Assembly: GCA_964017185.1 (NCBI GenBank)
Contig: OZ024879.1
Location: 30,262,383-30,326,382 of the forward strand
Length of the DNA stretch: 64,000 nucleotides
Source: Rugalucina vietnamica
Lineage: Eukaryota; Mollusca; Bivalvia; Lucinida; Lucinidae
Direction of reading: 5' to 3'
Below are positions 4,727 to 31,550 of the stretch, one piece after another. Each line of letters opens with the position of its first letter. Within the stretch, counting starts at the first letter, position 1. Made by a program: the position numbers and the translations under genes. The notes under the pieces were generated by a model. That model searched no databases, had not been told where the DNA came from, and worked only from the letters and a program-made list of their open reading frames with translations.

Positions 4727-4935
4727 ATATATACCCAAATACCCTTGGGCAAGGAGTGAAGAAAAATATATGCCGGTTCTGTCAGAAAGCATGCCCAACT
4801 CCATCAAAGTTGATTGTACATGAGCGAATTCATACAGGAGAGAAACCTTTCAGTTGTGAAATTTGTGGGAAATCTTTTGCCAGAAAGGAAAGTTTGACAT
4901 CTCACCAACTGGTTCACATGAACTTCAAGATTTGA
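4727..4935 (+). CDS. C2H2 zinc-finger 3'-terminal exon A (two fingers)
   Basis: The exon begins after the acceptor TTTTTCAG (AG at 4725-4726) with two bases before the first whole codon (intron phase 1). It encodes 68 residues and stops at TGA 4933-4935. Two C2H2 fingers follow in tandem, joined by the standard HTGEKP linker: CRFCQKACPTPSKLIVHERIH, in which the usual Phe after the cysteines is changed, then CEICGKSFARKESLTSHQLVH. There is no in-frame ATG, so it must be read as a spliced exon rather than an ORF. Sequence-specific DNA binding in the nucleus is the known role of this family. It is the leftmost of ten exons sharing acceptor phase and a private stop codon. The transcript's 5' exons are not in the window. 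Confidence 0.85.
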
Positions 4936-5007
4936 TATTCTTTTGCCATATTCACAGATTTGTGACAAACTACTATTGAACTTTCTAAATTAATTAACTT
5001 CCTGTCT

Positions 5008-5250
5008 TACTGCTATCAAATCTCATGTTATAAGATACTGTGAGACAGTGTATGAAACTTCAAATAAAAATTGGTTTTGGTCAATAAAAAATTCTGGTGA
5101 GGTGCTCAATAAATTGAAGTGTAGAGGGTTCCGTGCGACGAGCTTGTCCACATATGATTTTTCTACTCTGTATACAACTTTATCACATAATCTAATTAAA
5201 GAAAAACTTCTGGATTTGATAGAGTGGACCTTCAAAACTTTAGAGTAGTA
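5008..5250 (+). pseudogene. Penelope-like reverse transcriptase, 5' fragment
   Basis: Positions 5048-5248 encode a stretch ending in the RT motif-A block STYDFSTLYTTL, preceded by WFWSIKNSGEVLNKLK and, upstream in frame, SHVIRYCETVYETS. It reads in the same order as the RT segment that resumes at 6338, so the two are halves of one gene split by foreign DNA. A second, reversed fragment of the same protein region lies at 32474-32700. The class is judged Penelope-like from PKLHK and IPMGTNCAP motifs in the combined fragments; the family assignment is inference. Confidence 0.6.
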
Positions 5251-5375
5251 ATTAAATTGTTGCACTTTAATCCAATGTTTTAAAGGACGTCTTCGTTTTG
5301 ATTTTGTGTCCAACAATGACATGAAATAAAGACGGCACATAGAATAACACTGTTAATCCCCAAATTTATTTTTCT

Positions 5376-6165
5376 AATTATCCTAAATCAAAGAAAATGT
5401 CGGCTGGCAAAGAACATATAAAACATTTTGAATTTGCATGCATGTATATTTTAAGTTCTGAGACTGTGTTGATATGTCAATGTTATTCCAAAATGGATAT
5501 GCAAGTGCCGCCCGTTCCAAATCAGCCTAAGACTTTTCGTTTCCCACAACGTACATTCGGTGTGAAAAATCCCAGAAAAAAGAAGTTTCCAACCTTCTTG
5601 GTTTGACGAGTTGAAAGATCTCGCGTTTTGTCATTTTTGTATGTTGGCTTATAGGGACGGAAAGTTAAACAGCCTGAATCTAGACAAAGCTTACATCACA
5701 AATGGTTTTTCCAACTGGAAAGATGCGTGTGCTTCGTTCAGAAAACATGAGTCTTCGAATTGCCATAAAGAGTCAGTGCTTAAGGTAGAGACTTTGCCCA
5801 GAACCTGCGGGGACATTGGTGAAAAACTGTCAAAGCAACACGCTGATGAGAAAAGTGACAATCGCAACTGCCTGAGAAAGATTCTATCCAGTATTCGGTT
5901 TCTTGCGCGTCAGGGAATATCTTTACGTGGTGACGGTGATGAGAGTGATGGGAATTACATTCAGATTCTGAAGGTTCGCGGTGGAGATGATTCACATATT
6001 CTAGAGTGGTTAAAACGCAAGAACGATAAATACACTTGTGCTGACTCTCAAAATGAAATCACCGATGATAATTCTTCCTCTTTTAATTGCCTGATTTCGG
6101 TCGTTTTTGTCAACAAAAACGAACAAAATTTGGACCCACAAACGCATTCAGATCGCGTTTAAAAG
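5376..6165 (+). pseudogene. hAT-type transposase remnant (TTF-type zinc finger, DUF4371-like start)
   Basis: Positions 5611-6162 encode FCHFCMLAYRDGKLN, WKDACASFRKHESSNCHKE and a following KILSSIRFLARQGISLRGD block. This is the N-terminal zinc-finger plus start of the hAT transposase domain seen in ZMYM/ZNF862-like proteins. The segment just upstream (about 5510-5600) encodes PKTFRFPQRTFGV in another frame. The reading frame breaks near 5580-5605, and the catalytic part is missing after about 6160. It is therefore dead. GC-rich text at 6180-6310, with runs of C and G, looks like the terminal part of the same element. It separates the two halves of the RT gene. Confidence 0.7.
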
Positions 6166-6337
6166 CACCAATTTATCAAAATTTTCTCGGGGGAGACCCC
6201 CCGAAACCCCCTTACCAGAGGGGGGTATCCCCCTTCTCGTGCTCGCCCCCCGCTCGTGCCTTCGGCACTAGAACATGTCTTCCGCCGGACCACTTTTTAA
6301 ATCGTGGCGACGGCCCTTTTAAAGGGCATTAAAAAAC

Positions 6338-7336
6338 TATGGTTCACTTTATTTGGCATGTAATGACAGAAAGGCTTTTTTCACATCCTCTGACCAAAGT
6401 CGGTATACACTTTGGTCATGTCAGAATGTGTGCGACGCCTTATCCTATCTCCTGGATAATATTTATATTAGATTTGGGACCAGGTTATACAGACAAATTG
6501 TTGGAATTCCGATGGGTACAAATTGCGCACCTCTCGTAGCTGATTTATTTTTATACTGCTACGAAAGAGATTTCATGGATTCTCTTAACCATGATAATCA
6601 AGCTGATGTTATCGAGGCTTTTAATTCCACTTCTAGGTACCTCGATGACCTTTTGAACATTGACAACCCTTATTTTGAAGGTATGGTCAATCAAATTTAT
6701 CCATCTGAACTACAGTTGAACAAAGCCAATATCTCGGATACCGAAGCCCCCTTTTTAGATCTACATCTTTCTGTTGCAAATGGATTTGTTTCTTCTAAAA
6801 TTTATGATAAGCGCGATGACTTTGATTTTGATATTGTAAATTTTCCGTTTTTGGATGGTGACGTTCCTCGTCGTGCTTCTTATGGTGTTTACATTTCGCA
6901 ACTTATTAGGTTTGCTAGAGTCTGCAATCATGTTACAGACTTCAACGCTCGAAATAAATCTTTAACGGCCAAACTTCTCCAACAGGGCTATCGGTATCAT
7001 AAACTTCGAAAAACCTTTTCTAAATTTTATCGTAGACACTATGAATTGATTTCCAAATATAATGTTGGGTTAAAGACGCTTTTAAGTGAGGGTCTTTCGG
7101 AACCAGAATTTTATGGTGACTTGGTTTACAAATTTAAGAAACTTATAGGAAGTAAAGATTTTTCTTTTCAGTTTAGAAAAATCATAACACGTTACAGACG
7201 TATAGGTTATAACTTGAATGTTATGCGACAGTCTGCATGCTTAGTTTTTAACCCAATCACGGTTGATAACTATGCTGCCTTCTTTAATTGCACGCCGGTG
7301 GGTCGGGCGTCAGACTCTATGATGGCCCCGACTTAA
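6338..7336 (+). pseudogene. Penelope-like reverse transcriptase, central and C-terminal part
   Basis: The 327-residue frame contains the RT motifs QIVGIPMGTNCAPLVADLFL (motif B region), RYLDDLLNIDN (catalytic YLDD, motif C) and FLDLHLSV, then a long basic C-terminal region with GVYISQLIRFARVC and FYGDLVYKFKK. In-frame codons extend upstream to about 6338, the edge of the hAT remnant. No GIY-YIG endonuclease follows the RT. The RT fold would copy element RNA into DNA. It cannot be expressed whole because motif A is about 1.1 kb upstream beyond foreign DNA. Alternative: another non-LTR RT lineage; Penelope-like is my best fit. Confidence 0.65.
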
Positions 7337-8045
7337 AGCTATTCATTTTAGTTGGTTGGGGCCGGAGCTTCTTGTCTGTTGCTTGGCCCACCGGGGTCCA
7401 ACTGATGTTTTTCTTTAGCTCCGGAGTTAGTAAGTTATTTGGCGCCCAGGGATCTCCATCGTCGGGCAGCTTACTGAATCTGTGAGTCCTGGTTTTTGAT
7501 TCATCAGGATGTTTATCATGATTTATTTGTTTGTTCTTGATGATTCATTTACTAGTTAGAGATTCACCACGAGGACCGAAGAACTAACTAAATGTTATGA
7601 ACCACTGCAGAAGCTGAGGGTGAGGTTACGGCCGTGTAAAATCGATTTAAACCCGCCAGTAACTTTGTGTTACTGATCGTTCCAAGTCGATACTTCTGTG
7701 GTGGTTCTTTTTGTTTTATGTCTTGGTGTTTAAAATATTTTTGTGCTGTTGGCGCCTTATGTATGTTTGCATATTTTTAGTTAAGTTAAGGTAACTGAGT
7801 GGCCACCTATTGGGAAAATAGCTGCTCATTCGGCTTACGAAATGTTTTCATGGTATAAGTACCTGATTGTTAGTTTGGTTTTTTCCCACCTTGGTTTTTG
7901 GAGTGGGAGTCTTTTTCTGATTGCGCCTTTTCCTGATATTTGCCTACTTGTACTTTTTTTCCCATATGTTATTAGTTGGACTAGTGCACTTTCAGTTGTA
8001 GGGGAATCAGGGTTGATGTTTATCTTTTATTTTGCTGCTTAATGA
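7337..8045 (+). repeat. 3' tail of the Penelope-like element
   Basis: This stretch follows the RT stop and is shared, at the same spacing, with the copies at 24092-24836 (reversed), 44312-45010 (same strand) and, in part, 43555-43800 and 56185-56530 (reversed) and 61789-61885. It includes the block GGTTTTTTCCCACCTCGGTT-like near 7876 and a terminal CCTACTTGTAC. The shared, mostly 5'-truncated copies are what retrotransposition by target-primed reverse transcription leaves. Confidence 0.7.
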
Positions 8046-8159
8046 AATGCCTCTACGCAAAGAGAATAGGCTAGTATGGGACGCCACGTTCTGCAGCATC
8101 ACACCTTGGTTATACTGTTTGCCTGTGTCCAATAAATGCCACATGAGTCTGAATTCCTG

Positions 8160-8475
8160 AGTGGGCCCCCGCCCATTAGGGCCTAAAGAAATAGATGGGC
8201 TGCTTGTGTCTCCAGGCAAAGCTTCTTTTCTAACGACTGACCATCTGATTACTGGTTATCCGCTCAGGTCTGAGCTTTCCCAGGAAAAGTGGTTTCAAGT
8301 CAAACCTTCCATACCTATAAGCCTTTTTGGCTTGGTTGGATGGATATTTCAAGCACTTGTTGGATGCCATGGCGTCCTCATTTTGGGTAAAAGTCCATTA
8401 AAGTGGAGGCAACGTCCCGACATGATCGTGGCTGTTGACTGGGACGTAAAGCATTTATTCAAACAAACAAACAAA
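8160..8475 (+). repeat. Dispersed repeat plus SINE tail
   Basis: Positions 8185-8260 (GGGCTGCTTGTGTCTCCAGG, then ACTGACCATCTGATTACTG) recur at about 11190-11250 and 26288-26440. Positions 8400-8475 match the tail shared by the tRNA-derived SINEs of this window: CGTCCCGACATGA, GTTGACTGGGACGT and a run of CAAA units. No gene is supported between 8045 and 9070. Confidence 0.6.
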
Positions 8476-8892
8476 TTCCTGTGTGTATACGTTGAGAAAC
8501 ATGCATGACGTAGTAGTTCAGTCATATGCCTTGTTAACCGTGGTCATGAGATTTAGCCTTGACGACTTTAACATAATCTTCAAAATGACGCCACTTGAAT
8601 GTTATTGGTTTAGTGATATGTACTATACAGACACATACACCATTTTTATAGGATGGTCTTTGTCAGTGATTGGAACAGTACCGTATCATTGCTTACTTTT
8701 GACCGGATTTCGTATTGAGGTTAAAGTATAGAATCAATTTGGACCAACTTATTGTCATATATAATAAAAATCCACTATTTCTGTTATTGACAAACAAGCT
8801 AAATATGATTTTATTCCCATATAGCCAATTTTTATGATCATAAATATCCATTGCACAATGCAGTAGGTATATTAGAATGTTATAATATAATG

Positions 8893-8945
8893 ACAAGAAA
8901 ATGCATACTGGAGAGAAGCTTTGTATTCCGAATTATTTGCCAGAA
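8893..8945 (+). pseudogene. Decayed zinc-finger linker
   Basis: ATGCATACTGGAGAGAAGCT encodes MHTGEKL, the hallmark inter-finger linker, but no flanking finger can be read. It is the smallest of the zinc-finger remnants in the array. Confidence 0.4.
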
Positions 8946-9070
8946 AACAGTACTGTAAAAATAGAGTGATTATGATGAATGTGGTGTTTTTCGTTTTTGG
9001 AGGCAGAATTAGTTGTGTTCACCTACAGCTTGTTGTATTCAGAAGAATCTGATGCTATTGCGCATATAAT

Positions 9071-9305
9071 TGAGCCGCCACATGGGAAAACCAACAATCT
9101 GCATATGCGAAAACAAAGGCTCTGATCAGCTTCGCAGTAACTGCGAAGCTGATCAGCACCTTTGTTTTCGCTACACGGATAGTACATTTCCTCTTCTTTT
9201 TAAATCCGGAATTTCAAGCTTCCAGCCTGCTTCTGTGACTGCACAGCCTGATTTATGTCGGACCTGTTCGGAAACCTCATTGTTGGTTTTCTCACGAGAC
9301 GGCTA
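9071..9305. mobile_element. Palindromic MITE (GAGCCG...CGGCTC family), copy 1
   Basis: The ends are inverted (TGAGCCGCCACATGGGAAAAC and GTTTTCTCACGAGACGGCTA). Inside is a near-perfect hairpin, CTGATCAGCTTCGCAGTAAC against its complement, flanked by GCGAAAACAAAGG and CCTTTGTTTTCGC. At least ten further copies occur in the window. It has no coding capacity; the frame through it is a by-product. Confidence 0.85.
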
Positions 9306-9390
9306 AATTGTTAATAGATACATGAAGAGTAACTGTGGACAGTCTTTTTTCTGAACTTGCTTTCTGACTTAAATGCTTTTCTTAAAACAG

Positions 9391-9492
9391 AAGAGGAACT
9401 GGAGAGGAATCTCAATGAAAGAAATGTGATTGATGAGATAATAAATCTCAGGGTTGCTAAAATTCCAGATATCACACCTGGTTATGTTGAAA
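9391..9492 (+). CDS. Possible internal cassette exon upstream of zinc-finger exon B
   Basis: An acceptor-like CTTAAAACAG ends at 9390. The following 102 bases are open and encode an acidic, helix-prone segment beginning EELERNLNERNVIDEI. A GTAATC donor at 9493 leaves one base, so the exon is phase 1 at both ends and joins exon B (9552) in frame across a 59-bp intron. This is inference from splice signals and frame only; the segment has no recognised domain. Alternatively it is chance open sequence. Confidence 0.4.
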
Positions 9493-9551
9493 GTAATCAT
9501 TATACGTATGTATGTGTTTTATTTTTCTTCGAATTATCTTATTATTATTAG

Positions 9552-9880
9552 GCAACACTGAAGGATGCAAGAAAAGTTTATACAAATGTCGTGTCTGTCA
9601 GAAGATATTCTCAATACCATCATCCCTAACCAGACATGAGAGGATCCATACTGGAGAGAAACCTTACAAATGTTTGATCTGTGGGATGAAGTTCTGCGAT
9701 CCGTCGTCATGGAGACGTCACAAAGGAGTGCATACTGGAGAAAAACCTTACAAATGTGAAATTTGTAATAAAAGTTTTCGTCGAAAAAGTTGTGTACAGA
9801 GACACCTTAAACAGCATATTGATTACGAAAACTTGCCCATGCAATATCCTGTGATTTTTGTTTCAGCTAATAAAAAATAA
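9552..9880 (+). CDS. C2H2 zinc-finger 3'-terminal exon B (three fingers)
   Basis: The exon starts after the acceptor TTATTATTAG (AG 9550-9551), with two bases before the first codon (intron phase 1). It encodes 108 residues. Three canonical fingers are present: [42 protein letters not shown] and [21 protein letters not shown], with intact TGEKP linkers. The central finger shares DPSSWRRHK with exon C, marking the two as paralogues. The C-terminal tail after the last finger (about 19 residues, from [10 protein letters not shown] on) is encoded by the edge of an inserted palindromic repeat, so its end is transposon-derived. The role is inferred as sequence-specific DNA binding in the nucleus. 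Confidence 0.88.
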
Positions 9881-10103
9881 AAAAAAAATTCATTGGAAAA
9901 CAATTGATATTTTTAATATTTTTCTTCAAAACATTGATTGTGGGTACACTTTAGAACCGCCTCACCGAGGCAGTTCTAACGAGTGCCCACAATGTATGTT
10001 TTGGAGCAAAAATAAGAAAAATAGGTATACCCCTGTCAACCCCAGTTTTCTATATAAAAGTGGGTTTCAAGGGGGTATACTTTTCATCGACATGTTTGCC
10101 TGA
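9822..10103. mobile_element. Foldback repeat (GTGGGTACTCGTTAGAACCGCC family), copy 1
   Basis: Near 9940-9995, ATTGTGGGTACACTTTAGAACC faces its complement GGCAGTTCTAACGAGTGCCCAC around a GCCTCACCGAGGC core. Outer parts hold CCCATGCAATAT (left) and AAGGGGGTATAC (right). The same organisation occurs near 13370-13580, 17525-17790 and 59725-59985, and part of it near 14377-14600. The element overlaps the end of exon B. Confidence 0.75.
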
Positions 10104-10167
10104 TGTGTAGGACAAGAATCTGTTCGCTTGTAAAAACATGATATGTTAAAATACCGATGGTGATAGA

Positions 10168-10290
10168 GGGGTTAAATGTCGTCACTGTGGCAAATCTTTC
10201 CAAACTTCATAGAAAGTGAAAAGACACGAAACCTTACGCTTGTGAGGTCTGTGGGAAGAAGATCAGTGATCAAACATCATGTGATTTTCT
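10168..10290 (+). pseudogene. Decayed zinc-finger exon between B and C
   Basis: GTTAAATGTCGTCACTGTGG encodes VKCRHCG, followed by KSFQTS, a TAG stop, then KVKRHE. The linker is deleted, and the second finger (PYACEVCGKKISDQTS) resumes in a different frame. There is a stop and a frameshift, and no terminal histidine pair. It is a dead member of the array. Confidence 0.75.
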
Positions 10291-10389
10291 GTATAAATCT
10301 GAAAGGCCTAGGGAGTATAAGGCCTGATTGTGGTCTCAGAATTTGGTAATAAATAAATTTTGGAATTGTGATGAGAAAAGTCTTTCTAA

Positions 10390-10860
10390 AAGCACCCACA
10401 CGCCTCCTCGTTTAAAATCTCGAACAAATTCTTCATTCATCCTACAAGCGTTGCCATGGTTACACCCAGAAGAACCATAGGTATAGCACATTTTGCACTT
10501 TTTTTGCACTCATTATTGGCGATTTCTGAACACAAATTTTAATTTTTAACTACCGGCCCACGTGACAAACAAAATAAGATTTTGCATACAATATGTCTGG
10601 ATGATAATTCATAATTATTTCATATTAAGAAAGCTTTTGTCGCGTGGGCCAGTAGTTGAACATTTTGTTTAATACTGAAAAATAGACATAAAAAGCGGTA
10701 TTTCTGTGTTTTCGGAGTGTTGCCATGGCAACATTTACTAATTGAATGAAAAAGTTGTACTAGATTTTGAAAGCAAGGACACGTACCTGCTATTTGCAAT
10801 ATTTTTAGCAGCACAATTCAAAAATTCATTTTTTTTTTACCAAAACCTAAGGCCAAAATC
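10390..10860 (-). mobile_element. Repeat with an inner palindrome and RFX-like boxes, copy 1
   Basis: Read on the - strand, this matches 30405-30850: ATTGCAAATAGCAGGTA, the CTACTGGCCCACGCGACAAA arm, the opposing TTTGTCACGTGGGCCGGTAG arm, then GTGCAAAATGTGCT. It carries the perfect palindrome GTTGCCATGGCAAC at 10719-10732 and GTTGCCATGGTTAC at 10450-10463, which fit the known X-box bound by RFX factors. Coding potential is absent. Confidence 0.65.
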
Positions 10861-11039
10861 AGGCCTTTAATTCCCTAGGCCTTTGCCTGAAGTGTTTTTT
10901 TTTTTCAATTCCCTAGGCCTTTGCCTGAAGCGTGTTCTTCAATATGGTGCTCTTCAGATACTCCTTAGAATGCATAAGCATAACCGAAAATCTACTTCTC
11001 GTGTAAATTTTTCGAAATTACAGTACAAAAGTCTGGCTT

Positions 11040-11170
11040 TTGTTGCCGGATTTTAAAGGGCTACTGATGAGGGTTCATTACCCGAAATTGCGCAATATAG
11101 TCCATACTTTCTCCCTTTGAATGTTTTTACTGCTTCCAAAGGATCAAACTTTTATATTTTATTTACTGAA
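11040..11170 (-). repeat. Dispersed repeat (GATCCTTTGGAAGCAGT family)
   Basis: In reverse it reads GATCCTTTGGAAGCAGTAAA, CATTCAAAGGGAG, then a CAATTTCGGGTAATGAACC block ending in CAGTAGCCCTTT. The family recurs at about 19085-19185, 46180-46275, 46695-46800 and 62905-63010. The rest of 10870-12700 holds a copy of the GTGCCTCCAGGCAAAGC repeat at 11190-11250 and otherwise AT-rich intronic sequence with no supported gene. Confidence 0.7.
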
Positions 11171-12704
11171 GTTTTTTTAAGAAATACATGGGTTGTGCCT
11201 CCAGGCAAAGCTTATTAACTACAAATTGAGCATCTGATTACTGTTGAACCTCTTAACACCATAGTAGAGAACAGCCTTAATAATTTCAATAAATTGTATA
11301 AGTTGGAAATAAAGATAAAACTTCATATTGGCATTTTAGCTCTCCTGTCCATTCAGATTATCAAAAAGAGATTGTAGTAAAATAAACATGCCATTATTTT
11401 ATCTACACCCGCTTGAACAATATAAACACATTTCACGTGAAAAAGGAAGAAAATGTTTGTCTTTGCCGTTGAGCTATCTATATTTCTTAATGTTCTCGCT
11501 AATTAAGACTTACAATAAGTTCAAGGTTAACTCATTTAAGCCATGTGTCCCTTTTATGGGACATAGGCAAACAGAGTAGCCCCAGATGGGACGCCGCGTT
11601 CTGAGGCTATTCTGTTTGCTTAGAGAATTTTCATCGAAAAATTGATTGAAATTTAAAAAAATCACTCCTTCCGCCCCTTAAAATGAAAGTGGACTCGTCC
11701 AATTGATAATAATGATGGGAGAATCCACACGTCAAATATGGGTTAAACCAGCAACACAAGAGTAACCCTGTTGCTGGTGTTGGTGGCAGGACTGGTGCAT
11801 ACTATTGCTCTGTTACCCACACCCAATTGTGCAAACACAATAAGGATGTTTAACGAGAAACTGCGAGAGCACATTAGACAGAGCTGCCAGCTTCTACTAT
11901 AAACCTTCACGGAATGCGATTTTTCAAGATTTCTATCTGATTGGATGATTTGAAGAAGGGACAAAAGCAAATCTCAACTCTCTCAGGGATCATTTCTGTC
12001 AGATTTATTATTCTTAGGGTGTTTGATTTCCTTGAAAATAAACCTTTACTTCACTGCAGAGAATCAGATAAGCATCATTTTATATTGTATGTTTTTAAAG
12101 AGCTTGGATTAATGTGATTAATATGTAAATAAATGTGTCAATTTTGCTTTATTTATAGAAATATTGACACATGAATAAATGTGAATTCAGTTACATGATG
12201 AAAAGTTCATATTCAATACTAGTATACAATTCAAGTTTTACCTAGGGCAGTGATCCAGATAATGTGGATAATTATAAAAGTTCTGTTTGGAATATTGTGT
12301 GGACGCCTGTATCTCATGTGCATTACTTTTGTTCTAGCATATTTCTTTTCACAACAGTAAAAAATTGTCAATTCTTTCATTGATTTGAAAGGTATTCTTA
12401 GACATCCAAAATAAAAAATCACTGCTTGTTTACCACTTGTTTTACTCTGCTAGGTGTAATACATCCAGCTGATTTGTAGTAATAATTTAATGAGTCTAGA
12501 ATGCCAGTCTGACCACAATGTTTAGATAAAGCCTCAATTGCCTTGCAGAAAATCAACCAATCAGAGCAATTTCTTGTAAAACAGCATGCCGAATACCTCA
12601 TAGTTCTGTCTCATAAGCTACTTGGGAACTGTTATAGTTATACCAACTTCTTTCACAAAATATAAACTTCTTTTCTTCTAATTAAGATTTGTATTTATTT
12701 GTAG

Positions 12705-12973
12705 GAAGACTCAAAAGAGGTTTTTACATGTGCCGCTTCTGTCAAAAAATAGTCCCATCTCCATCAGTGCTTGCTAAGCATGAGAGGATTCATACAGGAG
12801 AGAAACCTTACAGTTGTGAGATCTGTGGGAAAAGATTCAGTGATCCGTCGTCATGGAGACGTCACAAAAGAGTGCATACTGGGGAGACACCTTATAAATG
12901 TGAAATTTGCTTAAAAGGGTTTAAACGAACTAGGGATTTGCAGAACCACATCAGACAACATACTTCTTATTAA
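12705..12973 (+). CDS. C2H2 zinc-finger 3'-terminal exon C (three fingers)
   Basis: The acceptor is TTTATTTGTAG (AG 12703-12704), again with two bases before the first codon (phase 1). The exon encodes 88 residues ending TAA. Fingers: CRFCQKIVPSPSVLAKHERIH (Val replaces the core Phe, as a changed core residue also does in exon A), [21 protein letters not shown] and CEICLKGFKRTRDLQNHIRQH. The second linker is TGETP rather than TGEKP. It is the closest relative of exon B, sharing a near-identical middle finger with different recognition residues in fingers 1 and 3. The role is inferred as DNA-binding specificity for a longer protein made by splicing. Confidence 0.88.
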
Positions 12974-12984
12974 AGAAATGTGAA

Positions 12985-13080
12985 TGTGACTTAATGTGAA
13001 CAATATTCACAAGGAAAGATAGTTTGCAACGACACATGATGACGCATATTAGCACAATGGATAGCATTACTCAATGATGT
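12985..13080 (+). pseudogene. Decayed zinc-finger half after exon C
   Basis: TTCACAAGGAAAGATAGTTT encodes FTRKDSL and continues QRHMMTH, the second half of a C2H2 finger, followed by ISTMDSITQ and a stop. The upstream cysteine half is only recognisable as TGTGAATGTGACT and is out of frame. It probably reflects an older duplicated exon. Confidence 0.65.
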
Positions 13081-13365
13081 GAAATATTAATCAACATATT
13101 TACTTTGCCATGAATACCTCTGTCTTAGAGATTTCAAACGGATCAGACACAAACTTAACTATACAACCGCAAAAAAGAAGAGAAAAAAAAAAGACATTCT
13201 GACATAACAAGTCTTTATGACATATATTCGAACGCATTATTTAATGTTTTAATGTCACTAAAACCAACTACTTACAAAACATTTGATGTGGTGATATAAC
13301 GAATAAAGTGTAGGACGAATTGTGATACTTGTAACACAAGGATACAATGATGTCGTCATTACGAG

Positions 13366-13580
13366 AACACACCCATGCAATATTTTGAAATTTTAGAATT
13401 GTAAAAAATTAAAATTGCAGTGGAAAATGTTAAATATTTTTCATATACTAGCACAAAACATAAATTGTGGGTACACGTTAGGACAGCATCGCCGAGGCCA
13501 CTCTAACGAGTACCACAGTCTATGTTTAGGTGCGAAATTAGAAAAAAGGTATGCACCCGTAAACCACATTTTTCCATTAA
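13366..13580. mobile_element. Foldback repeat (GTGGGTAC... family), copy 2
   Basis: ACAAAACATAAATTGTGGGT at about 13450 and the reversed arm CTAACGAGTACCACAGTCTA near 13503 enclose a GCATCGCCGAGGC core. CCCATGCAATAT marks the left end, as in the copy overlapping exon B. Confidence 0.7.
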
Positions 13581-13823
13581 AACACTTGTGAAAATTTGAA
13601 ATAGATCGGATGTCAACTTAAAGGATCTCAGTTTTAATATTTATTTATAAGCCAGTAAGAATGTCAACAAATTTTTACCCAGCCTTCATACAATGCTTTA
13701 TCCCCGTGTCTGTTAAAGATTTAGTTCTTTAAATCACCATGTACATTTGATTTTGACTTTCTTTGACCACCGGGTTCAATGTACTCTTTCATTCCAGCTG
13801 ATATTGTTTCTGCTTTCTTACAG

Positions 13824-14038
13824 GCCAACGAATATCTGATAACCATTGCTGTAACGTTTGCGGAATGATGTTTTCAAACCTATCAAGACTAAAGAGACAC
13901 GATATTATACATACTGGAGAGAAACCCTACAGTTGTGTGACTTGTTCTAGAATATTCAATAGGAAGGAAAATTTGCGACGACATCAGTTAATTCATGTGG
14001 ACAAAGCGTGTTTGATTCCCAGTAACGATTCCCAGTAA
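13824..14038 (+). CDS. C2H2 zinc-finger 3'-terminal exon D (two fingers)
   Basis: The acceptor is GCTTTCTTACAG (AG 13822-13823); two bases precede the first codon (phase 1). The exon encodes 70 residues. Fingers are CNVCGMMFSNLSRLKRHDIIH and CVTCSRIFNRKENLRRHQLIH, joined by TGEKP. The tail runs into a 13-bp direct repeat and stops at TAA 14036-14038 inside its second unit. There is no in-frame ATG, so a search for ATG-started ORFs misses it. It is intact and follows the same rules as its neighbours. Confidence 0.85.
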
Positions 14039-14064
14039 CGATTCCCAGTAACGATTCCCAGTTA
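14015..14064 (+). repeat. 13-bp tandem repeat containing the exon D stop
   Basis: GATTCCCAGTAAC is repeated about four times. In the exon D frame the second unit reads through to CAG TAA, which ends the protein. Confidence 0.85.
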
Positions 14065-14376
14065 TGTTAGTATTACTTGCAAAACCTCAGTGATGTGATT
14101 TGGGTCAAATGTCTAAGGTGTCGCGAAAAAAAAACAATATCACCATTCCTCTGTAGTTTGAAGTTTATAGCATTTGAAGTTTTTTGTTACCCAGGGACAC
14201 CCACCAATTTATATACATTTTTGCAAGTCCATTTTTATTTGAGGGAGCTTGGAAATAAACAAAAAGTCAAGTTGGTTTCAATCACTGATATTGAACAAAA
14301 AGTTTCAATAGAATTTTTATGATCATGAGTATAAATTTGCCCTTTAAATACATAAACTGTATAAACGCAGATAGGA

Positions 14377-14452
14377 AACATGCATTACGAAAACTTGACC
14401 ATGCATATTAAGAGAATTTTAAACAGAAAAAAAAACATTTTCATTGAAATAA

Positions 14453-14510
<58 letters not shown>

Positions 14511-14600
14511 AAAAATAGATAATTCAATATTTATGTTCAAATCATTGATTGTATATCCCAGTTTGTTGTATAAAAGTAGGGTATAAGGGTTAGACATGAC
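14377..14600. repeat. Foldback repeat remnant with a poly-A tract
   Basis: CATTACGAAAACTTGACCAT at 14382 matches the left end of the foldback family, and CAGTTTGTTGTATAAAAGTAG at about 14560 matches its right part. The centre is replaced by a run of about 52 A (14452-14503). Apparent proteins here are low-complexity artefacts. Confidence 0.65.
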
Positions 14601-14814
14601 TCGGACGTGTTTTCTGAATGCATCATTTGAAAACGTAATAAGGGGTACAATATTTAAAATGGCAAAGAAAGCAATGTTTGTTTTTTTTTTATATTGTTTT
14701 ATTTGTAATCGAAGTGTTCTGCCTCTTCTTAACTTTAAATGTTCAGTCATAGATATTAAATGCCCGCAATAAGTAAAGGTCATGAATTGCATTTACTTAT
14801 ATTCCAATATAATA

Positions 14815-14975
14815 TGAGCCGCAACGCAAGAAAACCGGTCTTCAAGGTTTCCGACCCTGTCCGACACAAATCGGTCTGTGCAGTCACAGAAGGTGGCTAG
14901 AAGCTTGAAATATTGGATTGAAGAAGAGAAATTGTACTATTCGTGTAGCGAAAACAAAGGCAAGAGTCAAGTGGC
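14815..14975. mobile_element. Palindromic MITE (GAGCCG family), half copy 2
   Basis: TGAGCCGCAACGCAAGAAAACCGG starts a copy that runs through the GTCCGACACAAA and GTCACAGAAG blocks to GCGAAAACAAAGGC and then stops before the hairpin. Confidence 0.7.
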
Positions 14976-15312
14976 CAAGCTCGTTTAAAACAATTATTAA
15001 TGTATATTTTTGTAAATTCGTTTGAAAGTTATTTTGATCTGGATCATCTACAGATCCGTTATGGCTGCAACCAGTGTATAATATGTATATATTTTTATTT
15101 CAACTTACTGTGAGGCCTACAATATGAGCTTGTAGTATACCCAGGCCCCGTTGTTTGTTCAAAAACAATGTCGCGACTGCATGCGGTAGTAGTAAAGTGC
15201 AGGCTTTTAACGTCATCCTGGGCCGAGCGGACATAATCCATATCTCCACCTCAAGGACGTGCGACTGCATGCATAAAATAGCAGTCTATTTTGTAGTACA
15301 TAGTGACAGTAA

Positions 15313-15564: not shown

Positions 15565-15851
15565 AGTCTGTAGTGACCAAGGTGGGTGGAGTAACGTGTG
15601 AAATGTTCCAATGTCTAAAATGTATGAAGAAATTCGACAACCGGTATAAGATAAAGAGGCACGTGTCAATACATGCTAAAGATTTCATCCGCTGGCCATG
15701 TTTCCGATGTGGAAAGACATACAGCACAGATAGGGGGTTGACAGATCATAAATGTGAAGGAAAAAGTAATGAAAAAAAAATACATAAGAATCCCCCAATA
15801 ATTGATGTTATATATTATGATAATCATTGGCATGGCACGGTCCCTACATGA
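15565..15851 (+). CDS. Zinc-finger 3'-terminal exon E, shortened relative to exon G
   Basis: The acceptor CTCTATTTCAG ends at 15564; two bases precede the first codon (phase 1). The exon encodes 94 residues. Finger 1 is CLKCMKKFDNRYKIKRHVSIH. A second, short CxxC...HxC unit follows (CFRCGKTYSTDRGLTDHKC). The exon matches exon G until the GKSNEKK region, then keeps an open but altered tail ending TGA at 15849-15851, and it lacks the third short finger and the WCxxC module of exon G. Introns upstream of E and G also match, so they are recent duplicates. Probably expressed-competent, but possibly decaying. Confidence 0.75.
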
Positions 15852-17093: not shown

Positions 17094-17362
17094 GATCAAG
17101 GGTTACCGGTGTTTATAGATGTAATTTCTGTGGGAAAATGTTTCCCGACCTTTTTCAAGTTAAGAGACACGAGAGAACACATACTGGAGAGAAACCGTAC
17201 AGCTGTGACTGTGGGGCGAAGTTTAGTGATCGATCATCAGCCAGGAGACACGTGGCTACACATACTGTGGGACTGTCACTAGAGTGTAAACTGTGTTTGA
17301 CATTGTGTGAAACTAATTATAATCTACAAAATCATCTTATAGGACATATGAATGGTTTGTAA
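17094..17362 (+). CDS. C2H2 zinc-finger 3'-terminal exon F (three fingers, one with CxC)
   Basis: The acceptor is CTGTTCTAG (AG 17092-17093) with two bases before the first codon (phase 1). The exon encodes 88 residues ending TAA. Finger 1 is [21 protein letters not shown]. Finger 2 reads [22 protein letters not shown]: a single residue separates the two zinc cysteines instead of two, as if one codon were lost. Finger 3 is [21 protein letters not shown], preceded by a non-standard linker (TVGLSLE). Folding of finger 2 is doubtful. Otherwise the exon is intact, and it shares SDxSSxRRH with exons B and C. Confidence 0.85.
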
Positions 17363-17790: not shown

Positions 17791-17817
17791 TCCTGATGAA
17801 AAGAAATTTGATCGCTC

Positions 17818-18006
17818 ATGGATGTCACGGAAAGCAAGGAAAATGAATTGTTCGAGAATTGGTGTTACAAATTACGTTATTGGTGCAGCCAATGCTCAAG
17901 AGGTATAAACAGATTTTCTGAGCCGAATCCAATAGTTTATGTTTGTGGGCGGCCAGTAGCGCTGAAGAATGACTTGTCAAAGTTTGAAAATCAGGGGAAG
18001 AAATGA
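17818..18006 (+). pseudogene. Remnant of an exon G-like C-terminal module
   Basis: The open frame contains YWCSQCSRGINRFS and, later, PVALKND. This lines up with YWCEYCSKGVIGIS and PVSLKKT at the end of exon G, but the second CxxC is reduced to a single Cys, and all the finger-coding sequence is absent upstream, where a foldback repeat lies. It is best read as the 3' end of a lost exon. It could be translated only if a new splice site is used. Confidence 0.55.
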
Positions 18007-19401: not shown

Positions 19402-19895
19402 AGTCTGTAGTGTCCAAGGTTGGTGGAGTAACGTGTGAAATGTTCCAATGTCTAAAATGTATGAAGCAATTCGACAACCGGTATAAGATAAAGAGACACG
19501 TGTCAATACATGCTAAAGTTTTCATCCGCTGGCCATGTTTCCGTTGTGGCAAGGTATACAGCACAGAGAGGGGGTTGACAGCTCATAAATGCGATGGAAA
19601 AAGTAAATGGTCATGTGTCCACTGTGGAAAGACATACAATACAAAGAAGGGTTTGGCAGCTCATAAGTGCGATGGAAAAAGTAAAGAAAAAAGCAAAGAT
19701 TATCCAAGACTTGATGCTACACATTATGAGAAGACGTATCCTTACTGGTGCGAATATTGCTCAAAGGGTGTCATTGGAATTTCGGACTCGAGAAACGTTG
19801 AAGTAAAATGTAATAATTGTTATCAGCCCGTATCTCTAAAGAAAACAATGCCAAAGCCAAAGCGAGGAAAACAGAAAAAGACACAAAAAGATTAA
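19402..19895 (+). CDS. Zinc-finger 3'-terminal exon G with a C-terminal CxxC-CxxC module
   Basis: The acceptor is CTCTTTTTCAG (AG 19400-19401); two bases precede the first codon (phase 1). The exon encodes 163 residues, the longest of the array. Order: one C2H2 finger (CLKCMKQFDNRYKIKRHVSIH); two short CxxC-X12-HxC units (CFRCGKVYSTERGLTAHKC and CVHCGKTYNTKKGLAAHKC) that are tandem duplicates ending KCDGKSK; then YWCEYCSKGVIGIS with KCNNCYQPVSLKK, a possible CxxC/CxxC zinc ribbon; then a lysine-rich tail that could act as a nuclear localisation signal. Exon E is a truncated sister. Zinc binding by the last module is inference. Confidence 0.85.
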
Positions 19896-22281: not shown

Positions 22282-22490
22282 GAACCATGGATTTACAACA
22301 AGGCTCGATGAAGCGTACGGTATACAGCTGCCTTTACTGTGGCAAGATATTTGAGCGGCAAGATCACATGGTCAGACACGTGAGAATTCATACTGGAGAA
22401 AAACCGTGGTCATGTGACTCATGTGGGCGGAGATTTAATACGAAAGATGGATTGAAAAGTCACCAGTTAACGCATCTCAAAATGAGATAA
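22282..22490 (+). CDS. C2H2 zinc-finger 3'-terminal exon H (two fingers)
   Basis: The acceptor TTATCTTACAG ends at 22281, followed by two bases and then an in-frame ACC ATG (phase 1). It encodes 68 residues ending TAA. Fingers are [21 protein letters not shown] and [21 protein letters not shown] with a TGEKP linker. The ATG at 22287 is inside the exon and need not be the start. Three decayed copies of its second-finger end follow within 360 bp. Confidence 0.87.
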
Positions 22491-22850: not shown

Positions 22851-22859
22851 TCTGGTAAT

Positions 22860-23530: not shown

Positions 23531-23537
23531 CTCCTAG

Positions 23538-23841
23538 GTCTTTAGATGTTAGTACAGAATGCAATATCATCAAAAGACGATGGCTGTATGCCCAGCTCTT
23601 CTCGACAGATGGCAGACAATGAAGGATCCACAGAGGATTTCACCGCCAGGCAAAACATAAGACATGTACAGCACTTTACATGCCCAATATGTTCCAGAAG
23701 GTTTAAATACAACTGGTTGTTAACATGACATATGTATTTACAGACCGGGGCAAAACCTCATAAATGTTTGCATTGTTATTATTCCTCCAGCAGAAAAGAT
23801 GAAATAAAACGGCATATTGTCGTACGCCACATGAACTAGGA
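23538..23841 (+). pseudogene. Decayed zinc-finger exon I (lola-like finger pair)
   Basis: An acceptor TCTCTCCTAG ends at 23537 in the phase used by the other exons, but a TAG follows one codon later. A later AG at 23551-23552 would restore the phase. The frame then reads HFTCPICSRRFKYNWLL and hits TGA at 23729-23731 in the middle of finger 1. Beyond that stop it continues as CLHCYYSSSRKDEIKRHIVVRH, a finger of the CxxCxY...LxxHI...H kind that typifies lola-type exons. Two stops argue for a dead exon; one substitution would explain the TGA. Confidence 0.7.
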
Positions 23842-24091
23842 AAATAATGATTGCATGGCATGTGAACTAAAAAGATATGTTTATTTGTGGTATATGAACA
23901 AGGAAGGTACATGAATATGTAGCATGAAATAAAAAAAGGTAAATGTTTATGTAGCACACAAGAATAGCCATTACAAAGGCATAGGTGAAAAACAACAATT
24001 TTGTACGACATAGAAGTCAGCTCAGAAGTCTTTGAGGGACAAAGCTCTGCTCTGCTGTACCTCTGTTAATTTTGTTTTAAGTCTTAATTTT

Positions 24092-24836: not shown

Positions 24837-24840
24837 GTTA

Positions 24841-25180
24841 GTTAGAGATAGGAAAATACAAACTGATTGCAAGCAATCCCTGAGGATTGGAAAAATAAGA
24901 GCATTAAATGGATGTACGGGGAGACTTTTTAGGGCCGCCACACGGCACAACCACAAGAACTCTGATAGTTAGAGATAGGAAAATACAAACTGATTGCAAG
25001 CAATCCCTGAGGATTGGAAAAATAAGAGCATTAAATGGATGTACGGGGAGACTTTTTAGGGCCGCCACACGGCACAACCACAAGAACTCTGATAGTTAGA
25101 GATAGGAAAATACAAACTGATTGCAAGCAATCCCTGAGGATTGGAAAAATAAGAGCATTAAATGGATGTACGGGGACTAA
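24841..25180 (+). repeat. 127-bp tandem repeat, 2.6 units
   Basis: GTTAGAGATAGGAAAATACA recurs at 24841, 24968 and 25095, exactly 127 bp apart. Each full unit ends in the TTAGGGCCGCCACACGGCAC repeat text; the third is cut at GTACGGGG. The units look almost identical, so the amplification is recent. Overlapping open frames in it are by-products. Confidence 0.9.
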
Positions 25181-25189
25181 GACTATTTC

Positions 25190-26270: not shown

Positions 26271-26544
26271 ATTTGGAAAAGGAAAAGTAGATGGGCTGCT
26301 TGTGCCTCAAGACAAACCTTAAAACCTACTGACGGACCATCCTGATTGCAGGTTAACCTGTCGAATGTCTTATTAGCCCGCCCATGCGGGTCGATCAAAA
26401 TATGCAAAGTATATAAACTACTGACTGACCATCTGATTACACATCTGTGTACACCAGCAATTCAAGACCCAGTAATCAACGTTGACAAACTAACCGACAT
26501 TTGCAAACGACAATACAAACAACGCTATGTCAAGGGACTGTCCC

Positions 26545-26710
26545 ATTGTTGACATGTGGCTCCTGTGGAAAAGATTTAGATTCCAATCATTGCTAAGAGA
26601 GACATGAAAGAGTTTTACACGGGATATAAACCGTTCTCTTGTAATAAATGCTCAGTCTTTTACACAGAAGGAAAGTCTAAATTACCACAAGATGACGCAT
26701 ATAAACAAAT
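26545..26710 (+). pseudogene. Decayed zinc-finger exon J
   Basis: TGTGGCTCCTGTGGAAAAGA encodes CGSCGKD, then a TAA interrupts before ERHERV. The linker GYKPFSC resumes in another frame, followed by NKCSVFYTEGKSKL and a broken histidine pair. No clear acceptor is present in front. Confidence 0.65.
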
Positions 26711-26902
26711 AAGCCCCATTAGGGTGAAATTAACCTGTCATGATTCCTTATCCTTGATTCGATTCGACAACGTACATGTACATAACAAACATAAGTAATA
26801 AACCTTAGACATGTTTTCTGTTCATTAAGACTTCACAAATAGTCAAAATCCTCACAAACCTTCCATTGGCGGTCCAATAATCATGATACTATCATGATAC
26901 AA

Positions 26903-27010
26903 CCCAGCGGGCACATGACGTCACAATGACGTCATATCAACGTCGATGCGACGTCATGAAGTAGCATCGACGTCGATCTGACGTCATTCTGACGTCATGT
27001 GCCTGCTGGG
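26903..27010. mobile_element. Palindromic 108-bp MITE with four CRE sites
   Basis: The ends are inverted (CCCAGCGGGCACATGACGTCA and TGACGTCATGTGCCTGCTGGG). Inside, TGACGTCA occurs at 26916-26923, 26927-26934, 26979-26986 and 26990-26997, with GACGTCG-like sites between. TGACGTCA is the known full CREB/ATF site. It has no coding capacity. Confidence 0.8.
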
Positions 27011-27200
27011 ATATAATCATGATTCTAGGCCAACCTTGACCCATAAAACATGACATACAAGTTTCGACACATTATACCATCATGTTTAAAAAGATATCAT
27101 CTTTGGACTTGTCAGTACATTGACTATACCGCCACCAAATTAATGCGACGTTTTTTGGCATATATCACACATGTAAAAAGCTGCGAATGGCACTTGTGTG

Positions 27201-29160
27201 TTTTTAGCTCACCTGAGCCATTAGGCTCACAAGGTGAGCTTATAGGATGCCCATGATCCGGCGTCCGTTCGTCCGTCGTCGTCGTCCACCATTTTCAAAG
27301 ATCTTCTTCTCTGAAACGGCTTGGCCAATCAAAGCCAAATTTTATATGAAGCATCTATAGGAAGGGGGAACCAATGTATATATAAATAATCCAGGTCACA
27401 TGACCAAGATGGCCGCCATACCCATATATGGTAAAAACCTTTAAAATCTTCTTCTCCAGAAACCAAAGGCCTAAGATCTTGAAACTTGGCATGTAGCATA
27501 AGTGACTCAAGGTCCACAATGTGTATATAAATAATGACCTTAGGATGACCTTGACCTATTTTACGGCAAGGTCAACATAGGTTGCCAATGCATTTGGATG
27601 GGGAAAACTTTTAAAATGTCATTTTAAGTGAAAGTGTAACAGGAAATGGGCAGTAGGACTTAATATTAATGATTCTGAAAAAAATTGGACCCCAGGGGCT
27701 CATTTGCCCCAGCCCCGGGGCATTATACATGTATATCTCCATAATATTCAAACATCTTCTCCTCTGAAACGGCATGGCCAATCAAAGCCCAATTTTTTAT
27801 GAAGCATCTATAGGAAGGGGGAACCAATGTATATATAAATAATCCAGGTCACATGACCAAGGTGGCCGCCATGCCCATATATGGTAAAAACCTTTAAAAT
27901 TCTTCTTCTCCAGAACCCAAAGGCCTAGGATCTTGAAACTTGGCATGTAGCATAAGTGACTCAAGGTCCACAATGTATATATAAATAATGACCTTAGGAT
28001 GACCTTGACCTATTTTACGGCAAGGTCAACATAGGTTGCCAATGCATTTGAATGGGGAAAACTTTTAAAATGTCATTTAAAGTGAAAGTCTAACAGGAAA
28101 TGGGCAGTAGGACTGAATATTTATGATTCTGAAAATATGGGACCCCAGGGGCTCATATGCCCCCGACCCGGGGCAATATACATGTATATCTCCATAATAT
28201 TCAAACATCTTCTCCTCTGAAACGGCTTGGCCAATCAAAGCCAAATTTAATATGAAGCATCTATAGGAAGGGGGAACCAATGTATATATAAATAATCCAG
28301 GTCACATGACCAAGATGGCCGCCATACCCATATATGGTAAAAACCTTTAAAAATCTTCTTCTCCAGAAACCAAAGGCCTAGGATCTTGAAACTTGGCATG
28401 TAGCATAAGTGACTCAAGGTCCATAACGTATATATAACAAATGACCTTAGGATGACCTTGACCTATTTTACGGCAAGGTCAACATAGGTTGCCAATGCAT
28501 TTGAATGGGGAAAACTTTTGAAATGTCATTTAAAGTGAAAGTCTTGCAGGAAATGCACAGTAGGACTGAATATTAATGATTCTAAAAAAGATTGGTCCCC
28601 TGGAGCTCATATGCCCCCACCCTGGGGCAGTATACATGTATATTTCCATAATATTCAAACATCTTCTCCTCTGAAACCACTTGGCCAATCAAAGCCAAAT
28701 TTTATGTGAAGCAACTATAGGATGGGGTAACCAATGTATATGTAAATAATCCAGGTCACATGACCAAGATGGTCGCCATGCCCATATATGGTAAAAACCC
28801 TTCAAAAATCTTCTTCTACGGAACCGGTGGACCGATTTCAAAGAAACTTGGCATGAAGCATTGATGGCTAAATTACTACAATGTATATATAAATCATGAC
28901 CCTGTGGTGACCTTGACCTATTTGACGACAAGGTCAACATAGGTTGCCAATGTATTTGAATGGGGAAAACTGTTAAAATGTCATTTGAAGGGAATAAATT
29001 AAATAGAAATTGGCAAATGGACAGAATATTGATTATTCTGAAAACAAATGGCCCAAGGGCTTCATCTACCCACTGGGCTAAATACCATAATATTCAAACA
29101 TGTTTATTGGCATATGTAGCAGATCTCAGGTGAGCGTTTACAGGACCATTGGTCCTCTGG
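27201..29160 (+). mobile_element. Element with AGCTCACCTGAGCC end and four 453-bp units
   Basis: It opens with TTTTTAGCTCACCTGAGCC and a GTCGTCGTCGTC run, and closes with CAGGTGAGCGTTTACAGGACC and the hairpin AGGACCATTGGTCCT. In between, GAAGGGGGAACCAATGT starts at 27361, 27814, 28267 and (varied) 28721, giving a 453-454-bp period. Each unit holds CAAGATGGCCGCCA-like and TGACCTTGACCTATTT blocks. A reversed, more diverged copy lies at 58396-59630. The 3' hairpin followed by CTGG would fit a Helitron-like end, but this is uncertain. No gene is encoded. Confidence 0.75.
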
Positions 29161-29389
29161 TTTATAAATGTAATTTACTCGGGTATATAAGTTTGAAGCC
29201 AAGTCATAAAGTTCTATGATTTATACATCGAAACCGAGACATTGTATCATATGTTTCTCATAAGTAAAGATCATGTTTGTTACGCAATCTGAATTTTCTG
29301 TACTTTGCTTTACATCCCCAATGGCTGCATCTCACATATGATAGTATTTCAGCTGCACTATTCTAATTGCTAGCTCTCTGTCGTTTCAG

Positions 29390-29619
29390 GTAAAGGGCGG
29401 ACATCGGTGCAGACATGTCTTGCCACAAAAGACACAGCTTCGTCTAGTCGAGTAAATGCCTGTAGATACTGCGAGAAGTCGTTCGTGTGGAAGTCACACT
29501 TAGTGATGCATGAGAGAATACATACTGGAGTTAGACCTTATTCATGTGAAATATGTGCTAAATCTTTTACACAAAAATCCCATCTAAGAACTCATATGAT
29601 GAGACACATACTAAGCTAA
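29390..29619 (+). CDS. C2H2 zinc-finger 3'-terminal exon K (two fingers)
   Basis: The acceptor GTCGTTTCAG ends at 29389; two bases precede the first codon (phase 1). The exon encodes 75 residues: a Ser/Thr-rich lead, then [21 protein letters not shown] and [21 protein letters not shown], joined by the variant linker HTGVRP. It stops at TAA 29617-29619. It is the sister of exon L (shared [20 protein letters not shown]). Intact by all criteria. Confidence 0.88.
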
Positions 29620-29709
29620 CTTAAAACACTGATTAATGAAAGATGATGTATAAGTGGGTGATCAAATGATACTTCAGTTAAAGGAAGGACAATATCAATT
29701 TTAGCATTC

Positions 29710-29949
29710 AGGGGCCAGTTGTTCAAATCTTTATGAGCTTAACGTCATGGTTAAGACCTTAACTCGTTAAGTAAATGCCGACTACATAAGCAAATACATT
29801 GTTATTTGTTGTTGATAATATGTGAGAATCCTTTGCATTGCTAAGATTTCTCATATTTTATCAACAAGAAATAACAGTGTCATATTCATGTTTGAAATTT
29901 TTACGAATCTTTGACTAACAACATCGTTAATTTTGAACAACTGGGTCCT
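29710..29949. mobile_element. MITE with CCAGTTGTTCAAA ends
   Basis: GGGGCCAGTTGTTCAAA at about 29711 is inverted as TTTGAACAACTGGGTCC near 29932. TTAACGTCATGGTTAAG and AACAACATCGTTAATTTT lie just inside, and AATATGTGAGAAT faces ATTTCTCATATT in the centre. It is non-coding and lies immediately after exon K. Confidence 0.7.
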
Positions 29950-30404
29950 ATGTTTCTATTAGAATTGCGTGTTTGTGTTTCTGTGGAACTCCAAAATCCC
30001 TTGAGAAACAAGTTTCATGTAAAGCGGGGCAACTATCAGCTGAATCATTCCTTGCCACAGTGATGTAAAGGAGGGACTGAAATGTATTATTAGTCGTAGG
30101 TCTAAGCACCTTATCTGATATTCACTCATTATAATATACATGTACTGACAGACTTTAATAACTCAAGCATTCAATCAATATAGTATCGTAAATCTTTACA
30201 CCATACACAATATTTATTCATAGAAAAATGTTCGCTGAATTCTTTGCTAAAGCTGCTCACTTCAACGTAACTAAGACGTAACATTTCTGAAGAAAACGAG
30301 GGATTTTGCAAAAGCGAACTCGCCGGTGATAGCAAACAACGCAAAGCACAAGGAAAACCAAAATAAACATTGTTACTTTCTTTCAGTGTCGTTTAAATTT
30401 TGAA

Positions 30405-30850
30405 ATTTGAGGAGAAAAGTATTGCAAATAGCAGGTATAGGTCCCTGCTTAAAATTTCTAGCACATCTATCATATTCAAATTAAACGTGTTGTAATGGTA
30501 ACGCTCCGACAAGCATCGAAATACCACTTTTTGCAATTTTGGGTCTATTTTTCACTATTTAACATCGTTTTCAACTACCGGCCCACGCGACGAACAATTT
30601 CTTATTATGAAATAATTATGAAGTATCACCCAGATATATTGTATGCAAAGTATCATTTTGTTCGTCGTGCGGGCTGGCACTTAAAAATAAAACAAGTGTT
30701 CAGAAATGGTCAAAAATAAACCAAAAAGTGCAAAATGTGCTCTATCTATGTATCTTCTGTGCGTTGCCATGTCAATGCTTGTAGGATAAATGAAGTACTT
30801 GTTCTTGTTTTTAAAAGAGGAGACATATGGCTGTTTTAGGAATAGTTAAA
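30405..30850 (+). mobile_element. Repeat with an inner palindrome and RFX-like boxes, copy 2
   Basis: Same order as the - strand copy at 10390-10860: ATTGCAAATAGCAGGTA, CTACCGGCCCACGCGACGAA, the opposing TTCGTCGTGCGGGCTGG, then GTGCAAAATGTGCT and GTTGCCATGTCAAT. X-box-like text is more degraded here than in copy 1. Frames in it are by-products. Confidence 0.65.
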
Positions 30851-31290
30851 CACCCTAGGGCTTTTGAATTTATTTCAATTTCACACGCAAAAATAAGCTT
30901 TCTTGATCAACGTTAAACTGACGTAATTACCACGCTTTTATGCAAATGAAAGTCAATCAACAGCATTGGTTTTGGTGTTCCTTTCCTTAATTCATGTTGG
31001 ACATGGAGAAATTATTTCGTCTCCATTGACCTTTTATGCAATTTATTTTTGTAGGGGTTTGGATAACGCTTGAAATCATACTGAATGGCGTCAATCAACA
31101 ACACTGTTATTTCGTTTTTGGTATTGAAGTTAAGCAGACTGATTGTACTTTTCAGTTCAACAAATATTTTTCGGAAAAATCTTGTATTCTGAGAGGAAGA
31201 ATTGATAATCCAAGTGTTGCGTTTTTTTATGTCCTTGAGTATACTTCAGTCGCATTGTGACATTACCGTAGTGTCATTATCTCGTTTCAG

Positions 31291-31550
31291 ATAAAAGTCA
31301 AGCACCAGCGTTTGTAATTAACCAGGACAAGCCATCTTCAAACACGGGAGGAACTGTTTTAGATCCATCTTCGTCCAATCGATATGCGTGTAATTATTGC
31401 GAGAAATCTTTCAAGTTCAAGTCTCACCTCCAAATGCATGAGAGAATTCACACTGGAGTGAAGCCTTTTACGTGTGAAATTTGTGGGAAGTCTTTTACAC
31501 AGAAATCCGGTATGAAAATTCATATGGCGACTCATCTACATATAGAGTGA
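31291..31550 (+). CDS. C2H2 zinc-finger 3'-terminal exon L (two fingers)
   Basis: The acceptor ATCTCGTTTCAG ends at 31290; two bases precede the first codon (phase 1). The exon encodes 85 residues ending TGA at 31548-31550. A lead of about 30 residues precedes CNYCEKSFKFKSHLQMHERIH and CEICGKSFTQKSGMKIHMATH, with linker HTGVKP. There is no suitable ATG, so it appears only as a spliced exon. It is the last intact member of the array on the right. Confidence 0.88.

Follow-up and report, generated by a model that had tools for sequence, protein, structure and literature searches.

The window analysed here (the whole 64,000-nucleotide stretch, C11:30,262,383–30,326,382 of the plus strand) contains the tail end of a long array of zinc-finger exons, and analysis of this window together with an additional 200 kb to its left suggests that the array probably belongs to one gene, in which a new kind of constant region is combined with about 60 alternative zinc-finger ends. 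In the gene model proposed from the sequence, a 691-codon exon would supply the start codon, end after one base (G) of a codon, and be spliced to one of about 61 terminal exons distributed over the next 18–201 kb, each of which contributes a stop codon and 62–163 residues that include one to four C2H2 fingers. Since every terminal exon carries its own fingers and stop, any given mRNA would encode a single transcription factor, in which a shared N-terminal region is followed by a DNA-binding end particular to that mRNA. The choice among the ends would be made in cis, by splicing or by selection of the 3' end, and the products are predicted to bind DNA.

The array extends over C11:30,110,294–30,293,932 on the plus strand (184 kb). 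A scan of 264 kb for plus-strand frames carrying the strict finger pattern returned 68 frames, 66 of them with a candidate acceptor, while the two without any AG look like chance. When the best acceptor of each frame was chosen by score only, blind to phase, it lay in phase 1 (two bases ahead of the first codon) in 61 of the 66 frames. Against a background AG phase frequency of 0.43 the binomial value is 4.6e-17, which measures uniformity and not independent events, because the phase is inherited among duplicates and the exons are not independent. By our own reading of the translations of the five remaining frames, two are 5'-truncated copies, another is a copy with a broken first finger, another is half of the decayed exon at 23546–23830 in the window, and the last has a phase-1 site as its second-best acceptor. 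The array exons are spaced at a median of 2.2 kb and most of them (44) contain two fingers. Across the array span, 155 finger matches were found on the plus strand versus 1 on the minus strand, overlapping matches included. An ATG is present in the open frame ahead of the first finger in 33 of the 61 exons and absent in the other 28, which therefore need an upstream coding exon. In the 45 bases ahead of the array exons, the acceptor consensus is the only conspicuous motif.

The ten exons at the end of the array had been described in a sequence-only reading of the window as intact same-strand exons with an acceptor AG and their own stop, arranged like the alternative 3' exons of Drosophila lola. 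All ten were recovered on the plus strand where that reading had placed them, each open to its own stop, and in all ten exactly two bases separate the best AG with a pyrimidine tract from the first whole codon, as it had held (Table 1). Several exons were said to lack an in-frame ATG, and indeed six of the ten have none between the acceptor and the first finger and four have none anywhere in the open frame upstream of that finger. The range of one to three fingers per exon needs widening to four across the array, and two of the ten window exons have divergent fingers, with just one matching the strict pattern. A Pfam scan assigned C2H2 families to all ten (the match at 15567–15848 lies below the curated cut-off) and returned no FLYWCH in them. 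The lola-like layout, in which numerous alternative 3' zinc-finger exons share a phase, extends to the 61 of 66 frames above, and the earlier figure of ten was an understatement, as about 61 exons are present. A domain scan of the 5' stretch of the window covered two of the three plus-strand frames over positions 1–14,995. Among 50 candidate public proteins scored, none contains the exon at 19402–19895.

Table 1. Array exons and related copies in the window (positions counted from the first base of the window)
Feature	Position	Strand	Description
Alternative terminal exon	4727..4935	+	2 C2H2 fingers; acceptor TTTTTCAG; phase 1; no in-frame ATG upstream of finger 1
Alternative terminal exon	9552..9880	+	3 fingers; phase 1
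Alternative terminal exon	12705..12973	+	3 fingers; phase 1; a second AG (exon start 12687) has a near-equal score and is also phase 1
Alternative terminal exon	13824..14038	+	2 fingers; phase 1; single AG available
Alternative terminal exon	15565..15851	+	divergent fingers below Pfam cut-off; phase 1; near-duplicate of 19402–19895
Alternative terminal exon	17094..17362	+	phase 1; weak acceptor, 1.2 bits
Possible remnant	17812..18006	+	like the C-terminal Cys-pair stretch of 19402–19895; similarity by eye
Alternative terminal exon	19402..19895	+	phase 1; 163 aa, longest of the 61; extra Cys-pair stretch near the C terminus
Alternative terminal exon	22282..22490	+	2 fingers; phase 1
Decayed copy	23546..23830	+	one incomplete finger, then a frame break, then one finger
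Alternative terminal exon	29390..29619	+	2 fingers; phase 1
Last alternative terminal exon of the array	31291..31550	+	2 fingers; phase 1

Comparison of the array exons with one another indicated that they arose through tandem duplication. Within the window, the exons at 15565–15851 and 19402–19895 are 84% identical over 73 residues, and across the array the closest relative of an exon lies a median of 2 places away, versus 18 when the order is shuffled (minimum 10 in 1000 shuffles). The common phase was thus inherited and kept, and the earlier estimate that ten exons would agree by chance far less than once in ten thousand falls away, as tandem duplicates are not independent trials. The 18 chosen close pairs gave a pooled dN/dS of 0.29 (0.12 to 0.61 for single pairs; some exons were used in two or more pairs, and one pair is saturated), showing purifying selection on the chosen pairs. 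Because frames and acceptors have been kept despite a dS of at least 0.9 in 9 of the 18 pairs, the array exons appear to be functional. In the last finger, the contact positions −1, 2, 3, and 6 have a mean entropy of 2.80 bits, compared with 1.97 bits at the other variable positions; in the first finger, the variation at positions −2 and −1 equals that at position 3. Distinct recognition signatures were found in 58 of the 61 exons (strict C2H2 fingers counted; eight exons have one). This pattern fits DNA binding that diversified while the scaffold remained constrained.

Analysis of the exon ends gave no sign that the array exons continue into a further exon, since donor counts fall below expectation at all thresholds. 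In the last 60 bases, none of the 61 exons has a donor of at least 3.5 bits, versus 2.9 expected from random stretches; at 1, 2, 3, 3.5, 3.8, and 4 bits, the exons with a donor number 8, 5, 2, 0, 0, and 0, and the expected numbers are 10.7, 6.5, 3.6, 2.9, 2.7, and 2.1. A role of the array exons as cassette (internal) exons accordingly found no support. In 49 exons the stop codon lies no more than six residues after the last finger. The polyadenylation-type hexamer AATAAA occurs within 100 bases after the stop in 10 of the 61 exons (6.4 ± 2.5 in random sequence) and within 200 bases in 14 (12.0 ± 3.2), and counts with so little or no enrichment give no clear support to nearby 3' ends.

Candidates for the constant exon were sought in the 48 kb preceding the array, among plus-strand frames of 75 aa or longer. 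Eight of these reach 200 aa, of which five were judged retroelement-like, and the remaining three, at 30,064,002 (299 aa), 30,090,349 (736 aa), and 30,093,190 (231 aa), have no Pfam match over cut-off; the 231-aa frame has one weak match below it (E 0.058). In the 736-aa frame, an ATG is flanked by G at −3 and +4; an acceptor-like site lies just upstream of the frame (by eye), and the three best donors, of 5.3, 3.9, and 3.8 bits, are each in phase 1. The candidate constant exon (C11:30,090,421–30,092,494, plus strand) consists of 691 codons, starts with MDENQAV, and sits 18 kb before the array, with retroelement frames filling part of this interval. Its donor at 30,092,494 (AAAG/GTAAAT), which leaves G, is weak at 3.8 bits and was chosen because of homologues: conserved coding sequence continues past the 3.9-bit donor and past the 5.3-bit donor at 30,091,993. 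The 691-codon exon, with which alone homologues were searched, matches the public proteins P0001 (96%), P0002 (39% over 99%), and P0003 (50% over 27%). The alignment of P0002 and P0003 to P0001 runs as far as KGK, at the donor, and does not extend into their tails, which have 4 and 12 residues; P0001 is so close, being similar beyond the donor too, that the conservation boundary rests on these two tails. A profile search with the constant-region alignment returned P0001 only, and a Pfam scan of the candidate exon at E 0.1 gave no match. In the source genome (1.09 Gb, 47 contigs) no other copy of the exon was found, and the result was the same with P0003 as the query at E up to 10. The AlphaFold2 model of P0001 is uninformative, with a mean pLDDT of 34.5 and a best stretch (residues 641–690) of 55–72.

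The G left by the donor forms no stop codon with the first two bases of any of the 61 array exons, whereas T in its place would create stops in 30. The same freedom from stops holds for A or C, so that compatibility with G is a weak test of joining. The junction residues formed with G are Gly (37), Glu (9), Ala (8), Asp (6), and Val (1). Downstream of the candidate exon, the 231-aa frame has a phase-1 acceptor at its start and a phase-1 donor leaving T, and includes an exon from 30,093,230 with 217 residues and its own stop, followed 35 bases later by AATAAA; this exon, too, is single copy. It was rejected as a second constant exon, because its T would create a stop with 30 of the 61 array exons, so that it cannot be spliced in ahead of those 30. 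Given its own stop and the AATAAA behind it, the best reading of this exon is that of an alternative end without fingers, which in the proposed gene would come first among the alternative ends. On the other side, 26 kb before the constant exon, the 299-aa plus-strand frame at C11:30,064,002 contains a basic DPVLREIERRKDRERRALARQ region, has no Pfam match, and may belong to the same gene or to a neighbouring one.

The earlier reading had placed the shared exons to the left of the window, perhaps encoding a BTB domain, and had proposed an upstream search for a BTB exon ending in phase 1. The location and phase agree with the 691-codon candidate, while the BTB part was not borne out. The genome contains 149 BTB matches among the 150 of 213 candidates that were scored, and the list has none in the interval from 19.10 to 31.53 Mb of C11; at this coverage a weak or split domain near the array could be missed. 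As the candidate exon also lacks a Pfam match, BTB was rejected as the shared region.

According to excerpts of PMC11426971, Drosophila lola combines constant 5' exons with alternative 3' exons to give 20 isoforms, 17 of them with fingers, and mod(mdg4) has at least 30 isoforms, mostly FLYWCH; both carry TTK-type BTB domains, which the title of that paper calls Arthropoda-specific. The present locus resembles lola in its many alternative C2H2 3' exons with a stop each and a single splice phase. It differs from lola in the constant region, where no BTB was found, in a number of finger exons over three times as high, and in that its exons are mostly finger pairs joined by HTGEKPY-like linkers. 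It differs from mod(mdg4) in that the ten window exons have no FLYWCH and in the lack of a BTB match near the array. Judged by its layout, the locus probably works like lola, and it is not classed as a lola-type member because no BTB domain was found. Tandem C2H2 gene clusters, of the KRAB type and others, consist of genes that each have their own N-terminal exons. The array shares with such clusters the tandem duplication, the purifying selection on the scaffold, and the variation of contact residues; it would differ from them in that one constant exon serves the whole run. In the open-licence literature, at the level of titles and abstract openings, no such arrays were found outside insects.

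A genome search with a 65-aa array exon gave 160 matches; among the 150 listed, 131 lie on C11, 16 on C4, and 3 elsewhere. The same query gives 36 matches, some sharing an exon, for the 61 exons of the array, so totals elsewhere are lower bounds. The listed C11 matches form 11 strand-uniform blocks, including the present array and one block of a single match, and the strand switches 9 times among them, versus 58.5 when shuffled (minimum 42). The C4 matches form one minus-strand block at 40.69–40.76 Mb, with at least 16 matches listed. Further blocks, with mostly short zinc-finger frames, were seen at C11:30.35–32.0, 37.4–37.6, 49.1–49.4, and 50.4–50.5 Mb, as well as at this C4 position. A BTB-bearing 698-aa frame at C11:31,530,610 lies inside a block of array-like exons at 31.44–31.99 Mb.

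These blocks bear on how the ends are joined. If single units or groups had their own promoters, their acceptor RNAs could be trans-spliced to the constant exon, a reading that overlaps with the one-gene model save for cis; we consider it unlikely, although it stands foremost among the alternatives. All mod(mdg4) mRNAs are made this way, with alternative exons on both strands (excerpts of PMC12692577). Relatives of array exons likewise occur on both strands of C11: two minus-strand relatives of the exon at 19402–19895, at C11:30.371 Mb, were read, and both have TTTCAG acceptors in phase 1, which makes trans-splicing possible, and genome searches found no second constant exon. On the other hand, the 61 array exons share their strand with the constant exon, so that cis splicing suffices, and the other blocks may use unrelated constant exons invisible to these searches. 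It is improbable that the single-copy constant exon serves all blocks, with well over 100 terminal exons on both strands of C11 and on C4, partly by trans-splicing; if it did, a DNA-binding repertoire would be drawn from one N terminus.

Animals commonly have zinc-finger genes in tandem clusters, and the array could likewise consist of separate genes with their own short first exons, the phase of the last exon being merely inherited. Kinship by duplication would account for the phase without any sharing, and 33 exons have an ATG before the first finger. However, 28 have none, no first exon was seen to recur with the units, and the constant and finger-less exons are unique in the 264 kb. Similarity upstream of the units at a matching acceptor distance is patchy (82 of 1270 hits, without a control, many of them transposon-like), and no recurrent upstream element is convincing. 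We rate this reading as unlikely, behind trans-splicing. A further alternative, ranked next and doubtful as well, keeps the array as described and assigns the constant exon elsewhere, to a shorter frame or to one beyond 200 kb upstream. Here it counts that the donor was picked by comparison, that the frames considered were those of at least 75 aa on the plus strand in 48 kb, and that homologues were sought with the 691-codon exon only; against it, five of the eight long frames look like retroelements, and of the other three, one lacks donors exceeding 4 bits and another leaves T. The presence of a few truncated or frame-broken copies might suggest an array of mostly dead copies, which the 61 open frames with acceptors kept, the low pooled dN/dS (0.29), and the high dS in half of the pairs make very improbable.

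If the preferred model of one gene with a constant exon and about 60 ends is right, a BTB constant region is no prerequisite for alternative 3' zinc-finger exons: the design can emerge on an unrelated constant region and expand to about 60 variants, over three times the number of finger exons in lola. The locus would then be a system to study how one among dozens of terminal exons is chosen, and whether some expansions of zinc-finger genes are really exon expansions. The graded divergence of the tandem exons would make the evolution of finger specificity readable inside one gene.

Several other features were observed in the window. Its first array exon is directly preceded by a 187-base tandem unit in about 16 copies (1277–4333), and a 337-aa frame (6323–7336), which we take to be reverse-transcriptase-like and of a retroelement, lies between that exon and the next. 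At 24839–25176, a 127-base unit is repeated 2.7 times with a 100% match, indicating a very recent origin or an assembly effect. On the minus strand, a 284-aa frame at 36008–36862 has seven strict C2H2 fingers unlike those of the array exons and is probably a separate zinc-finger gene or exon, while the long frames at 41384–42655 and 48079–51807 (423, 897, and 344 aa) presumably resemble parts of a Gypsy-like LTR retroelement. Near the end of the window (63684–63965), 10-base repeats of TAGTAAAACG are followed by the roughly reverse-complementary ACTACGTTTT, forming a possible inverted repeat.
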